A stretch of 38,905 nt of DNA from an uncultured Candidatus Peregrinibacteria bacterium (GTDB taxonomy: Bacteria > Patescibacteriota > Gracilibacteria > UBA1369). The stretch covers positions 1 to 38,905 of the forward strand of contig CALMAI010000041.1 of assembly GCA_937858825.1 (NCBI GenBank), written 5' to 3'. The stretch's first letter is position 1. Each line of letters opens with the position of its first letter. The notes beneath the pieces were generated by a model. It saw only the letters and a list, made by a program, of their open reading frames with translations. It was not told where the DNA came from and did not search any database. The position numbers were made by a program, and so were the translations under genes. Positions 23,257 through 28,597 of the stretch are shown in pieces.

Positions 23257-23312
23257 AATTTGCGGCAGAACATATTTTCATATAAGCTACTCTCTTGTTA
23301 GCTTTTTCGTCT

Positions 23313-24272
23313 ATGACCATTCCGACCGACATTGCAGACGCCATTTTTGCCAGTCTTAAAGCGGCAAAAAACGTACTCATTATATCTCATCGCGGTCCGG
23401 ATCCAGACACATTAGGCAGCAATCTTGTGCTCAGAAAAATCCTTGAAGACATGGGCAAAAAGGTTACTTCAGCCTGTGTAGATGAAGTCCCACACACCTA
23501 CCATATCGTTCCCGACATCCAAACATTTGTCACCGATTTCAATCCCAGGGACTACGATCTTTTCATTGCCGTGGATGCAGGATCCATCAGCCAGGCCAAC
23601 TTCCCTTTCAAATATCCAGAGATTGTTGAAAAAAATTTCATCAATATTGACCATCATCCTTCCAATGAAGGATACGGCACCCTCAACCTGGTTATGGACA
23701 AAGCCGCATCAGCAACTTTTGTAATCTATCATCTTTTCCAGCATTGGAACATTGAGATCACTCCCTACATTGCAACCTTGCTCCTCTACGGCCTCTACTA
23801 CGACACTGGAAGCTTCATGCACTCCAACACTTGTGATGCTGTTCTGGAAATGGCCAGCGACCTCCTTGTAAAAGGCGCCGATCAGGAGATTATCATCAAA
23901 TCCCTCTACCAAAACAAAACTATTAACCAGTTACGACTTTGGGGCCGGGCGCTCGAAAGCATGGAACTCACCTCTGGCAACGTAGCTGTCGCAGCCGTCA
24001 CCGAAGACGATTTCAAAGCTACTCACGCAACCCACAACGACCTGAGCGGACTCATCGATTACGTCAGCTCTACCAAAGGCAGCAATTTCGCCACACATCT
24101 CAGCAGTCAGGAAGACGGCACTATTAAAGGATCCTTCCGCACCCGCCGCGATGATGTAAACGTTTCCGCGCTCGCTCAAAACTTTGGAGGCGGCGGACAC
24201 AAGAAAGCTTCCGGCTTCAGCATCAAAGGAAAAATCAAACGCACATCCCAGTGGTCTATAGTGGGCGAGTAA
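23313..24272 (+). CDS. DHH/DHHA1 phosphoesterase, NrnA/pAp-phosphatase type
   Basis: 319 aa from ATG 23313; a TTG at 23295 is less likely. NrnA-type enzymes degrade short oligonucleotides and pAp, or cyclic-dinucleotide products, using two metal ions. Motifs: ISHRGPDPDTLGS (residues 24-36), FIAVDAGS, NIDHHPSNEGYG, LLYGLYYDTGSF, then DHHA1 with RTRRDDVNVSALAQNFGGGG and HKKASGF. Motif I begins SHRGPDPDT rather than DHRxPDxDA; the metal-binding histidine and aspartates are kept. It follows the ferredoxin by 56 bases and a hairpin follows its end. Confidence 0.93.
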   Translation: MTIPTDIADAIFASLKAAKNVLIISHRGPDPDTLGSNLVLRKILEDMGKKVTSACVDEVPHTYHIVPDIQTFVTDFNPRDYDLFIAVDAGSISQANFPFKYPEIVEKNFINIDHHPSNEGYGTLNLVMDKAASATFVIYHLFQHWNIEITPYIATLLLYGLYYDTGSFMHSNTCDAVLEMASDLLVKGADQEIIIKSLYQNKTINQLRLWGRALESMELTSGNVAVAAVTEDDFKATHATHNDLSGLIDYVSSTKGSNFATHLSSQEDGTIKGSFRTRRDDVNVSALAQNFGGGGHKKASGFSIKGKIKRTSQWSIVGE

Positions 24273-24379: not shown

Positions 24380-25018
24380 ATGACAACAACTCCTAGTACC
24401 ACTTCACAAACCAAGAATCTTATCATCGAAGATAACCTCGAAAGCATTTTCGATATTCTCAAAGAAGCAGTACTTTCACACCGTGATGGAGTACGCGTAA
24501 GCATCAGTTTTTCAAACATTCGCTCTCGTGGTGACATTATCACCTCAATCCAAAAACCTTCTCAGGGAGCGGTTTCATTTTTAAAACTGTTCGACAAAGC
24601 ACTCAGGACAATCGACAATAAAGAAGGAAAAAACAAACCAGACATCGCTATTTTAAATGTGGATCATCCGGACATCCTGGAGTTTCTCAGCTATGAATCA
24701 CACTTTTCAATGAAAGTTGGCGTGACCAAAGAGTTCATTAAAGCTGTTGAAGAAGATGCCATGTACGATCTCATCGACCCGCGAACCGGACAAAAAGTGA
24801 ACCAGCTCAACGCCCGCGGCGTGTACGATCTGATCAGCGAGAAGACAATGAGCAGCGACGAATCCGGCATTATTTATCTGGATAAAATCAGCACCGTTCA
24901 AATGCCAAAACGTGAACAACAACCCTTGAACGAAAATCAAAACTCACTACCTTTTACCGAAGAAACCAAAACACAAGCAGAAGAGATTATTCCACCTCCA
25001 GTGGTGGCCATGGCATAA
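24380..25018 (+). CDS. Stand-alone ribonucleotide-reductase-like fragment without cysteines
   Basis: 212 aa. Residues about 37-172 read like an internal piece of the RNR large-subunit barrel, class II/NrdJ wording. DGVRVSISFSNIRSRGD matches the GFNFSxLRPxGD strand. QGAVSFLKLFDKALRTI matches the PVSFMxxFD region. AILNVDHPDILEFLSY matches the VDHPDI helix. KVGVTKEFIKAVEEDAMYDL plus IDPRTGQKVNQLNARGVYDL and SGIIYLDKIS match the run up to the finger loop. It ends before the NxCxE finger loop with the radical cysteine, and the whole protein contains no cysteine at all, so it cannot be a reductase. The N-terminus is a short polar extension and the last 40 residues are a disordered acidic/proline tail. 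A candidate promoter TTGGCG-17-GTATAT ends about ten bases before the ATG. The helical-protein gene starts 24 bases downstream. A binding or regulatory role is inference. Confidence 0.82.
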   Translation: MTTTPSTTSQTKNLIIEDNLESIFDILKEAVLSHRDGVRVSISFSNIRSRGDIITSIQKPSQGAVSFLKLFDKALRTIDNKEGKNKPDIAILNVDHPDILEFLSYESHFSMKVGVTKEFIKAVEEDAMYDLIDPRTGQKVNQLNARGVYDLISEKTMSSDESGIIYLDKISTVQMPKREQQPLNENQNSLPFTEETKTQAEEIIPPPVVAMA

Positions 25019-25042: not shown

Positions 25043-27379
25043 ATGGGAGCTCGAAAACTTGAAAGTTCCAGTGCCTTCGAGGCCGAAACTATCAGCAACC
25101 TGGCTAAAAATAGAATCGAACTGGCAGAGGCCAAAAAGATTCGTGATCTTCGTGAACAGATAACAGCGCTCATTGATGACGCCTGCGGAAATCGTGAATC
25201 CGGAAAACGAAAAGAGTTTGAATCCCGACTTCAACAGGAACTAAAAGCCAGCTCCATTGATGGACTGAATATGCTCAGCACCAAGGTGGAGGTTTACCGT
25301 GATAACGTCAACAAAACCCTCGAAAAATATTTTGGCATGGTCGAACAGCGAGAGTACGACCACCTTTTTGTGAATAGACCAGGACGCGACGCCCGAGCCC
25401 TCTACAAAGAAGAGTTCCTGGAAGCCAGCGACGCCAAACGTGAAAAATTGTTAGGTGAATTCGCCTCATACATGGCCGAGCAGCAAAAAACATTTGAAGA
25501 GCTGGCCAGCTATGTATCACCGGAAACTATTTCCCGCATGCGTCGCAGCGAACGAATTCGCCTGCTCATGTATGTAAAAGGATGTGGACGCCTTTTGGAT
25601 GAAAACAAAGAGCTTTTTGCCGAAAGTGAAATAGCCGAGATTAAAGCCCAAATGGCTGACTGCACCAGCCCCACAGATCAGCAAAAACTCATGACTCAAA
25701 TTGCGGGGAATCTGGAAAAACGAAAATGGTATAAAGAAGTTTTTGATCGACTGCCATCAAAGTATCAACAAGTTTGGGGCAAAATCGACCAAATGACATT
25801 TGCCGAAAGACAAGTAAATTATGAAAAACTAATTGTCCGCCTTGAAGAAGAGTATGAAGACATTCTGGATAACCACCCGGATCGCAAACATATTGGAACC
25901 AAAGACCGGGCCTCAGCTTTAGCATACGTTCGAAGTGATAAAATCAGCGGTGGTGACAAATTCCGCGCCCTCAAAGGACTTGAAAAACAGATCCAACAAC
26001 AAAAAACCGAAGTTTCGAACCCATTTGAAACAACGCTAAATGAACTACAGCAGTACAAATCACCCCGGGAAATCAAACGACTCCGTGACCAATTCTACAA
26101 TGGAGAAACCTATGAACAGAGAAAGGAGCTGGCAGAAAATATTAAAACAGAACTTATTAACGCTCAATCCGAAAGCAAAGAACGCCAGGATTTAATGGGT
26201 GAATATAAGGCTAAACTGGAACAGGATCTCGCAACAAAGATCATCAGCAAAAAGACACTCAAAGCCGCGCTAAAACGAGCAGAAAACCAGTCAATCGACG
26301 AACTCCAGACCACACTGGTCATCTACAAACCAGATCGTGAACGCCGGATCAAACTCCTGAAACAGTTTAAAGCTCTTCCAAAAGAGATTCAGGATAAGAA
26401 CATCGACTTCTTTGAACTCACACACACAGAACGTGTCATGCGCATGGAAGAGTTAAGCCAATATGAAAAGAGTGAAAAAACAGATGAACAAAAAGAGAAA
26501 AAGATCACAGAAAAAAACACTGCCGAGGAAATGCCAACCCAGGAATCGGAGCAACAAAACCATCAGCCTCTTGAATCCAAAGAAGACTCTGACAACGCAA
26601 AAATCGAGAAACTTATGGCCCTCGCCTCCAGCGCTACAAGGCAGCAAAACTATGAAAAAGCCATTCAACACTACCAGGACATTCTGGCTATCGATCCACA
26701 AGACGAACTCGCGGCCATGAGTCTTCAATTTGTAGAAGGAAAGCTGCACAAAGCCCAAGAAAAAGCTGCACAAACAAACGAAGAGGGGGGAGAGCAACAA
26801 CTCACCGAGTCAGAAAAGAGCAGACTGAAACAGGCCATTAATGATGCCTCAAACAACTCAGGAGTAATGAGACGAAGAAAGCAGCACGCCATGACCGAAG
26901 AGCTTACTGATAATCTTAAAAAATCTCAGGCCAAGCATGGAGTGGTGTCACTCGAAGACAGAAACAAGAACATGACCGAAGATGAAGTACAGGCAAACAA
27001 GCAACTTGTAGAGGCAACCGGCAAGAACAAAATGCTTGTTGATGGAAGAGCCGAAGACGCGATTTGGTTTAACGATGAAGGATACCGCGACCTTTCCGAT
27101 CCAAGCAAAGAGCTAAAAGTAGAGAATCAAATTGCCAAACAGATAGCTAATGGACAAGTAATGGACAACATCGTTGCGCACAAAACTGATGGAACTATGT
27201 CCAATGCAACAAACGCCGAAAAAAATCTTCAAAAGAGGAAAACAGAGACTAAAAATATCATTAAGTCGATCGCAAAAAAGAAACTGAAAATCGACGATTC
27301 AAAAGAAGAAGCGCTTAATATCGCCCTCGAAGAAGAAATGAAGAAAAAGGACATCTCTGTTTCACTCCGGGCCGCATAA
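25043..27379 (+). CDS. Large helical repeat protein, 778 aa
   Basis: No family recognised. Highly charged and alpha-helical along its whole length, with no signal peptide or membrane span. A unit recurs: WYKEVFDRLPSKYQQ ... MTFAERQVNYEKLI (from about residue 227) and IKLLKQFKALPKEIQD ... LTHTERVMRMEELS (from about 436), with a weaker copy at FEELASYVSPETIS ... RRSERIRLLMYV. A disordered Glu/Gln/Lys linker lies at about 475-520, then one TPR-like unit (RQQNYEKAIQHYQDILAIDP, about 533-552). A basic and acidic C-terminal third follows. It lies 24 bases after the RNR-like gene, so the two probably act together. A scaffold role is inference. Confidence 0.8.
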   Translation: MGARKLESSSAFEAETISNLAKNRIELAEAKKIRDLREQITALIDDACGNRESGKRKEFESRLQQELKASSIDGLNMLSTKVEVYRDNVNKTLEKYFGMVEQREYDHLFVNRPGRDARALYKEEFLEASDAKREKLLGEFASYMAEQQKTFEELASYVSPETISRMRRSERIRLLMYVKGCGRLLDENKELFAESEIAEIKAQMADCTSPTDQQKLMTQIAGNLEKRKWYKEVFDRLPSKYQQVWGKIDQMTFAERQVNYEKLIVRLEEEYEDILDNHPDRKHIGTKDRASALAYVRSDKISGGDKFRALKGLEKQIQQQKTEVSNPFETTLNELQQYKSPREIKRLRDQFYNGETYEQRKELAENIKTELINAQSESKERQDLMGEYKAKLEQDLATKIISKKTLKAALKRAENQSIDELQTTLVIYKPDRERRIKLLKQFKALPKEIQDKNIDFFELTHTERVMRMEELSQYEKSEKTDEQKEKKITEKNTAEEMPTQESEQQNHQPLESKEDSDNAKIEKLMALASSATRQQNYEKAIQHYQDILAIDPQDELAAMSLQFVEGKLHKAQEKAAQTNEEGGEQQLTESEKSRLKQAINDASNNSGVMRRRKQHAMTEELTDNLKKSQAKHGVVSLEDRNKNMTEDEVQANKQLVEATGKNKMLVDGRAEDAIWFNDEGYRDLSDPSKELKVENQIAKQIANGQVMDNIVAHKTDGTMSNATNAEKNLQKRKTETKNIIKSIAKKKLKIDDSKEEALNIALEEEMKKKDISVSLRAA

Positions 27380-27443: not shown

Positions 27444-28004
27444 ATGGATCTCTTAATGGACCTGCTCGCCACCATCACAACATATCTTGTCCTCCTGGCC
27501 TGTATTGCCTTTACAGCGATCATTTTTGCAACAGTCATAAGCAACCTCCTTCTCAAAGTGCCGTTTGTCCCCAGCAGTAAACGGGTCATTAAACATATCG
27601 CCAAACTGGCCAATATTAAAAAAGATGACCAGGTATACGATCTTGGATCTGGCGACGGACGTTTCCTCTTTGAAGCCGATCAGTACACCAACAAAGAACT
27701 CATCGGATACGAACAGGCTCTCCTTCCCTACTGTCTGACCAAAATAAAAAATCTATTCCGCAAATCCAACATTCGCATTCATATGAAAAACTTTATGAAT
27801 GCCAACTTGAGCAACGCAGATTTAATCTACTGCTACCTGGGACCGGAAACCATGACAGAAATTGGTGAAAAAGTTCAGAAGGAGTGCCGCAAAGGAACAC
27901 GTATTTACAGCAACACTTTCTCAATCCAGAACATGAAGCCCGAAAAAGTCTGGCCAAAAGACAAAAAAAATCGACTCCCAACTATTTACTACTATAAAGT
28001 ATGA
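27444..28004 (+). CDS. Membrane-anchored SAM-dependent methyltransferase, copy 1
   Basis: 186 aa. Residues 8-36 form a membrane helix, followed by VPFVPSSKRVIKHIAKLANI and then class I methyltransferase motif I VYDLGSGDGR (64-73). Later strands read LIGYEQALLPYC (acidic SAM-ribose residue) and ADLIYCYLGPETMTEIG. The order of one N-terminal helix, a PFVP-type loop and a short Rossmann domain resembles the FAM173/ATPSCKMT family of lysine methyltransferases. In that family the eukaryotic member modifies the ATP synthase c subunit. Assignment to that family is from pattern only. Its TGA stop overlaps the start of copy 2. Confidence 0.85.
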   Translation: MDLLMDLLATITTYLVLLACIAFTAIIFATVISNLLLKVPFVPSSKRVIKHIAKLANIKKDDQVYDLGSGDGRFLFEADQYTNKELIGYEQALLPYCLTKIKNLFRKSNIRIHMKNFMNANLSNADLIYCYLGPETMTEIGEKVQKECRKGTRIYSNTFSIQNMKPEKVWPKDKKNRLPTIYYYKV

Positions 28005-28597
28005 TCAAAGACGCAATCATCATCGCCGGCGGAGTCTTGATTCTCATGCCACTCTTCTACGTCATGAGCAACGCCCCATTCAACCTCTACACGCTGACTG
28101 CCTACATGGCATTGCTCATCCCAACACTTGCCGCCCTGGTCAACGGCGCGCCCTTTGTGCCAACCCCAATGGGAGCAGTAGAAAAGATGCTTAAAGTCAG
28201 CAAAATAAAAAAAGGCGACAAAGTCTACGACATAGGATGCGGGGATGGACGGGTAGTCTATCTGGCCGCCAACAAACACGAAGCCAATGCCACCGGCTTT
28301 GAACTCTCTCCCTTCGTCTTTATCTTTGCCAAAATCCGGCAACTTTTATGGCGATCCAAAGCAAAAATACAGTTCGCCAATTTCAAACACAAAAACCTTT
28401 CTGACGCCGACATTATTTTCTGCTACCTTTTGCCAGAAACACTCCTCAAGCTGGAACCAAAACTCAGCAAAGAACTCAAGCCTGGCGCACGCATTATCTC
28501 CTACGCTTTCCCCATTGCCAGTTGGGAGGAGGTTAAGAAACACCCTCGTGACGCGAAGCAGAATATCGCCCCAATTTGGGAGTACGTGAAGCAATAA
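28001..28597 (+). CDS. Membrane-anchored SAM-dependent methyltransferase, copy 2
   Basis: 198 aa, paralogue of the preceding gene. The N-terminus has one or two hydrophobic segments (AIIIAGGVLILMPLFYVM and LYTLTAYMALLIPTLAALV). The shared linker reads APFVPTPMGAVEKMLKVSKI, then motif I VYDIGCGDGR (75-84), ATGFELSPFVF and ADIIFCYLLPETLLKLEPKL. The two copies keep the same architecture but have diverged clearly, so the duplication is old or each has its own substrate. Overlap of four bases (ATGA) shows coupled translation. Its last 65 bases overlap the end of comEC on the other strand. Confidence 0.86.
   Translation: MIKDAIIIAGGVLILMPLFYVMSNAPFNLYTLTAYMALLIPTLAALVNGAPFVPTPMGAVEKMLKVSKIKKGDKVYDIGCGDGRVVYLAANKHEANATGFELSPFVFIFAKIRQLLWRSKAKIQFANFKHKNLSDADIIFCYLLPETLLKLEPKLSKELKPGARIISYAFPIASWEEVKKHPRDAKQNIAPIWEYVKQ

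Follow-up and report, generated by a model that had tools for sequence, protein, structure and literature searches.

The betaherpesvirus R1 homologues (HCMV UL45, MCMV M45 and HHV-6B U28) are large-subunit proteins of the ribonucleotide reductase (RNR) type that have lost activity and have other roles (PMC11772975). In yeast, the inactive RNR paralogue Rnr4 (R4) is kept for its service to the enzyme (PMC3267527). The class II RNR of Pseudomonas aeruginosa is split into NrdJa and NrdJb, and both pieces are needed for activity (PMC4520616). In the class II NrdJ of T. maritima, the effector is contacted by Asp141 at the ribose and by Arg171 and Lys158 at the phosphates, and the substrate contacts include Asn320, Glu324 and Arg207 (PMC4728125). 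The bacterial clamp-binding consensus is QL(S/D)LF, with variation tolerated (PMC9690074; PMC4549789). For E. coli, a tie between RNR and the replisome has been both proposed and questioned (PMC2773459, PMC2826317).

The window, that is, the whole stretch of 38,905 nucleotides analysed here from a Ca. Peregrinibacteria genome (G000), carries an open reading frame at 24380-25018 that is very likely a selected, catalytically dead RNR derivative. The frame, its landmarks and its neighbours are as follows.

23310..24272, forward strand: DHH-family (NrnA-like) gene, upstream marker of the slot (PF01368 and PF02272; conserved synteny).
24380..25018, forward strand: pseudo-RNR gene, 212 aa, without cysteine (PF02867, E 2.9e-21; dN/dS 0.021 against G001; slot shared with relatives).
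24419..24883, forward strand: folded core, residues 14-168, the RNR specificity-site and dimer-interface stretch of the barrel (AlphaFold2, Foldseek to T. maritima NrdJ, alignment).
24431..24433, forward strand: Asp18, equivalent to T. maritima NrdJ Asp141 (effector ribose), invariant in active and dead forms (1xje alignment; PMC4728125).
24521..24523, forward strand: Arg48, equivalent to T. maritima NrdJ Arg171 (effector phosphate), invariant in active and dead forms (1xje alignment; PMC4728125).
24620..24649, forward strand: residues 81-90 at the position of loop 2, degenerate; GGKRRGANMG in active relatives (alignment).
24938..24955, forward strand: QNSLPF, clamp-binding-like motif in the disordered tail (QxxL(P)F in eight of nine family slot tails; QxxLF-type motif in DnaE of the same genomes).
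24980..25003, forward strand: EEIIPPPV, conserved tail motif common to the linker of full-length NrdJ (alignment).
25043..27379, forward strand: helical protein gene, 778 aa, with one weak TPR-like match, adjoining slot NrdJ in families f1, f7, f13 and f9.
27444..28597, forward strand: two methyltransferase-like genes, downstream markers of the slot (domain matches; conserved synteny).

The RNR barrel domain PF02867 matched residues 16-145 of ORF 24380-25018 with model positions 8-146 of 523, above the curated cut-off (E 2.9e-21). The top NCBIfam matches were class II (B12-dependent) NrdJ models, with PRK08665 at E 1.2e-38, and the best PDB chain by sequence was T. maritima NrdJ (1xje, E 5.5e-13). 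An AlphaFold2 model, computed from an alignment of the window protein, a near-identical relative and phage RNR segments, was confident over most of residues 11-150 and had pLDDT below 50 for residues 168-205. With this model, Foldseek ranked 1xje first (E 1.4e-12, probability 1.00). The original prediction of a cysteine-free fragment of the RNR large-subunit barrel in a clean frame was thus borne out by the open frame, by PF02867 and by 1xje through both routes, and the structure check that it had proposed gave an RNR-like predicted fold rather than a contrary one. The RNR-like stretch had been put at about 135 residues; its homology to the barrel stood, but it is slightly longer, at about 155 residues (14-168). 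With no cysteine in the 212 aa, the radical cysteine and the redox cysteine pair of class II RNR are absent. In the alignment the finger loop NPCGE is deleted and substrate loop 2 is degenerate.

Ten genomes of family f1, including G000, show the same slot, in which a DHH gene is followed by an RNR-like gene, often the helical gene, two methyltransferase-like genes and mostly a ComEC-like gene, the last named from a reading of the sequence alone. The product of the RNR-like gene is shortest in G006, at 189 aa; those of G000 and G001 have 212 aa and that of G009 has 336 aa. Forms of 587-634 aa are encoded by G007, G008, G005 and G002, and the longest, of 725 aa, belong to G004 and G010. The motifs ACFVLP, NPCGE and EACNLGS were present in the slot proteins of G004 and G010 and lost in the other slot proteins of the family. 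The contigs of G003 and G011 end at the slot and are uninformative on its RNR gene. In family f7, the NrdJ in the same neighbourhood is full-length, at about 815-848 aa, has a Zn-ribbon-like C-terminal end and is followed by the helical gene.

The slot RNRs of G004 (L038:9890-12067) and G010 (L039:8648-10825) are full-length, with the active-site cysteines and with the clamp-like motif already there. Despite these cysteines, they lack the Zn-ribbon-like C-terminal end of other families. The absence of this end alone is no proof of lost activity, because tandem-array RNRs elsewhere in the phylum include members without it. Such arrays, in which two to four RNR-like genes of class II follow one another, were observed at L159-L168 (G179, G185, G484, G212, G428, G285, G277, G358, G159 and G413); most members keep NxCGE, and the Zn-ribbon-like end is often found in some members only. 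In G484 and G358, one frame of about 1430-1457 aa contains two successive RNR units. In family f13 (G049:C9, G054:C50) the slot-type NrdJ frames are 1135-1155 aa long, and the finger loop of G049, VVHNCGEQPL, resembles the end of an intein lying within the catalytic loop.

The short form was sought in relatives, as had been proposed, and recurs in two further genomes. That of G001 is 99% identical to the window protein, and that of G006, which belongs to another genus, is 55% identical and has the same slot and the same MTTTPS start. In a search of 148 relatives and of 380 genomes drawn from the whole phylum, closely related frames of less than 350 aa were confined to family f1. The remaining matches above E 1e-20 lay in longer frames, of which a few were cut or merged. 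When contigs of GTDB genomes were scanned, only the near-identical relative and one distant match were returned. The genomes are fragmented, and all seem to have been assembled from metagenomes.

Between G000 and G001, the pseudo-RNR gene displayed 33 synonymous and three replacement differences (dS 0.29, dN 0.006, ratio 0.021), and the dN/dS values of twelve neighbouring genes in the same pair ranged from 0.015 to 0.118. Tail residues 173-212 displayed two synonymous and no replacement changes. This purifying pattern in both the whole gene and its tail indicates that the gene is not decaying. Catalytic residues lost and purifying selection on a form held by G000, G001 and G006 together characterize a conserved pseudoenzyme. 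The domesticated pseudoenzyme of the original prediction was therefore supported by the short form in three genomes, by the dN/dS comparison with G001 that had been suggested as a check, and by a complete NrdJ elsewhere in the genome.

The protein had been described as stopping before the finger loop and continuing in a new polar tail. The alignment gave a less simple picture on the first point and contradicted the second. The short forms are without the N-terminal region and without the barrel from the finger loop on, and they retain the C-terminal end of the protein, an internal deletion having rejoined this old end. The tail of ORF 24380-25018, NSLPFTEETKTQAEEIIPPPVV, aligns with SQLPFNTDTNK...VEEIAPPPI, the end of the full-length orthologue of G010, and NSLPF...EEIIPPPV is thereby paired with SQLPF...EEIAPPPI. 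Since the tail aligns with the end of a full-length protein after an internal deletion, it is not new; it is the ancestral RNR linker with two conserved motifs. Outside family f1, the EExxPPPI-type motif sits in the linker before the Zn-ribbon-like end of NrdJ, and in the slot it is present in active and dead forms, including the full-length relatives.

The effector contacts were mapped through the gap-free part of the 1xje alignment, giving Asp18, Arg48 and Arg35. The last is the counterpart of Lys158, a position occupied by Gln in several dead and two active relatives. Six active slot-type enzymes share 74 invariant positions, 15 of which, including Asp18 and Arg48, are unchanged in all seven distinct dead forms; the probability that both anchors were retained by chance is about 0.04. 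The retention of the anchors may thus be taken as supportive, not decisive, evidence for a kept effector site. Loop 2 (GGKRRGANMG) is lost in every dead form. In active RNRs this loop reads the effector base, and with its loss any nucleotide sensing may therefore be unspecific. The ATP cone was strong in the dead form of G009 (E 8.5e-23) and weaker in that of G005. Since the G009 protein keeps both the ATP cone and the effector anchors, the signatures of the two allosteric nucleotide sites persist in it although its catalytic site is gone. The nucleotide sensor suggested originally is plausible in view of the retained anchors and of the two dead relatives with an ATP cone, but the binding itself is something we infer.

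QNSLPF occupies residues 187-192, a segment with pLDDT below 50, and fits the relaxed form QxxL(P)F. The slot tails contain QNSLPF in G000 and G001, QLSLF in G004, QSQLPF in G010, QVNLPF in G009 and QPPLF in G002, G005, G007 and G008. A clean clamp-like motif was not found in the slot tail of G006, and the motif is absent from the active NrdJ of other families. A set of 175 large ORFs, taken from 14 DNA stretches, included eight with QxxL(P)F in the last 60 aa. All eight are slot RNRs (eight of the nine family slot proteins), and four of them come from one clade, so that they are not eight independent cases. The DnaE proteins of seven family genomes have a QxxLF-type pentapeptide at a shared position in the C-terminal part, and DnaN is encoded in the window genome. 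The clamp motif of Hda is QLSLPL, and by likeness to it the proline-containing QxxLPF could be read as a clamp motif. Judging from this motif, the tail may bind to the clamp. A literature search for an RNR with a clamp-binding motif gave matches on the clamp and on E. coli replication, and nothing relevant on RNR pseudoenzymes or Patescibacteria NrdJ was found in the open literature searched, though other papers may exist.

A family search of the window genome detected two RNR loci, ORF 24380-25018 and, on another contig, a complete NrdJ of 1241 aa that passes the PRK07562 curated cut-off. The similarity between the window protein and this NrdJ is low (about 25%). Because a complete NrdJ exists elsewhere in the genome, as the original prediction had asked, the short ORF is unnecessary for catalysis. 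The complementary half of a split RNR was not found in this search (assembly about 96% complete), and nothing that a sequencing error could have separated from the ORF was recoverable nearby. A split RNR with its second half elsewhere is unsupported in this assembly, in which the search gave only the ORF and the one complete NrdJ.

The large NrdJ is the working RNR in G000, G001, G005, G006 and G009. In G007 and G008 the working RNRs are a class I NrdA type and a class III NrdD, the NrdA type having been assigned by frame length and score in these two genomes and by model in G003. In G002 it is a 791 aa frame resembling monomeric class II (TIGR02505, E 1.1e-92, below the curated cut-off of that model), and the view that G002 has no working RNR was rejected after this frame had been read. 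The type of working RNR varies between genera of family f1: large class II NrdJ, NrdA type plus NrdD, or monomeric class II.

In the tree of neighbouring genes, G000, G001, G006 and G011 formed one supported clade and G002, G003, G005, G007 and G008 another, with G004, G009 and G010 unplaced and the backbone poorly supported. An AU test of the neighbouring genes rejected a single clade of dead-slot genomes (p 0.02), on a set that included G003 and G011, whose slots are unreadable, and that had few markers in common with the outgroup. The tree of the RNR segment grouped the dead forms together. A single ancestral loss of catalysis is weakly disfavoured by the neighbour-gene tree, and independent catalytic losses within the family are possible, not established.

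The helical gene begins 24 bases after the stop of ORF 24380-25018, and the tightly linked downstream gene that had been predicted is therefore real. The linkage is conserved in other families: the helical gene lies directly 3' of slot-type NrdJ in f1, f7, f13 and f9, whether the RNR is catalytically intact or not, and in G006 it overlaps the pseudo-RNR gene by four bases. The helical protein was modelled as all-helical at low confidence (pLDDT 58.8). No helical gene was detectable genome-wide in G002, G007 and G008, which keep the dead RNR. In G005, the 359 aa frame that comes directly after the dead RNR contains a weak match to the helical protein (G005:C52:3681-4070) and may be a helical gene that has become shorter. 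The idea that EExxPPPI docks the helical protein is unsupported, the motif persisting where the helical gene was not found.

A working class II RNR (NrdJ) very probably once occupied the slot, and ORF 24380-25018 is its reduced, dead descendant. With other RNRs supplying dNTPs, the slot gene lost the substrate loop and the catalytic cysteines; the shortest forms also gave up about three quarters of their length. Purifying selection has retained the gene for another job. Probably dimeric, the kept core may still bind ATP or a dNTP in what was the specificity site. The tail, which is disordered, may dock on the DnaN sliding clamp via QxxL(P)F and on a further partner via EExxPPPI. The protein would then be a nucleotide-responsive adaptor at the replication machinery, here probably with the adjoining helical protein. 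The reading that we tentatively favour, at somewhat less than an even chance, is an adaptor that binds nucleotides and may also attach to the replication clamp. The fuller version, an RNR turned dNTP sensor on the replication clamp that discarded its catalytic half, possibly more than once in the family, and kept the allosteric site and a clamp-docking tail, is doubtful.

The conserved gene order in four families and the four-base overlap in G006 would also suit a selected pseudoenzyme whose main role is structural, as a partner of the helical protein, without nucleotide sensing or clamp docking. However, the dead RNR persists in G002, G007 and G008, where no helical gene was detected, G005 has a weak match only, and the retained effector anchors and ATP cone would be left unexplained, so that we consider this unlikely. 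The protein might instead regulate the working RNR or join it as an extra subunit, either inhibiting it or forming a heterodimer with it across the former dimer interface. The dimer-interface and specificity-site region lies within the kept segment (PMC4728125), and yeast Rnr4 sets a precedent, being an inactive paralogue that the active small subunit requires (PMC3267527). Yet the dead gene sits beside large NrdJ, NrdA plus NrdD, or monomeric class II depending on the lineage, a variety that a partner adapted to a single RNR would hardly fit, and the similarity to its own NrdJ is about 25%. The RNR inhibitor of the original prediction thus became less likely, and such a role in general seems rather improbable. 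Some other function, not pointed to by the present evidence, is improbable to the same degree: selection is clear and EExxPPPI occurs in active and dead forms without a known partner, but the effector anchors and the clamp-like motif favour the adaptor, not strongly.

That the gene is a decaying remnant of a redundant RNR would agree with the complete RNR elsewhere and with most of the gene being gone. The clean frame, the dN/dS of 0.021 and the 55% identical short form in another genus, with the same slot and MTTTPS start, make it highly improbable. The fragmented assemblies could point to a sequencing or assembly artefact that truncated a full RNR gene, but G001 carries the same form with 33 silent differences, a 55% identical one is present in G006, and no other RNR part lies nearby. 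The chance of this is negligible, and sequencing error or chimeric assembly was rejected on account of the same form in independent genomes.

Family f1 presents an enzyme losing its catalytic half, with the effector-site module under selection and intermediates alive in the same slot, and the window protein represents a natural minimal RNR effector-site module. If the sensor on the clamp were true, it would tie dNTP sensing physically and directly to the replisome of bacteria. If the tail binds the clamp, this would bear on the debated tie of RNR-related proteins to the replisome.

Compared with dimeric class II NrdJ (PRK08665 type; T. maritima, 1xje), the core of the window protein is homologous, the predicted fold is the same and the effector anchors are kept, and its gene occupies the slot of full-length NrdJ in related families. 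It differs in being without the catalytic cysteines, finger loop, loop 2 and Zn ribbon, at a quarter of the length. NrdJa/NrdJb is likewise a class II RNR divided into pieces, but in the window genome a complementary piece was not found. The protein resembles bacterial beta-clamp clients (QL(S/D)LF) in that a flexible region close to its C-terminus contains a QxxLF-type motif (PMC9690074, PMC4549789), which makes it a candidate client. The betaherpesvirus R1 proteins are viral and act on host signalling, whereas the window protein is bacterial, of class II, and consists of one segment and a tail. Yeast Rnr4 is a small-subunit paralogue pairing with active R2, whereas the window protein is a large-subunit fragment found beside several RNR types. 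Dead RNR paralogues are thus already known from betaherpesvirus R1 and yeast Rnr4, and the window protein is a further variant.
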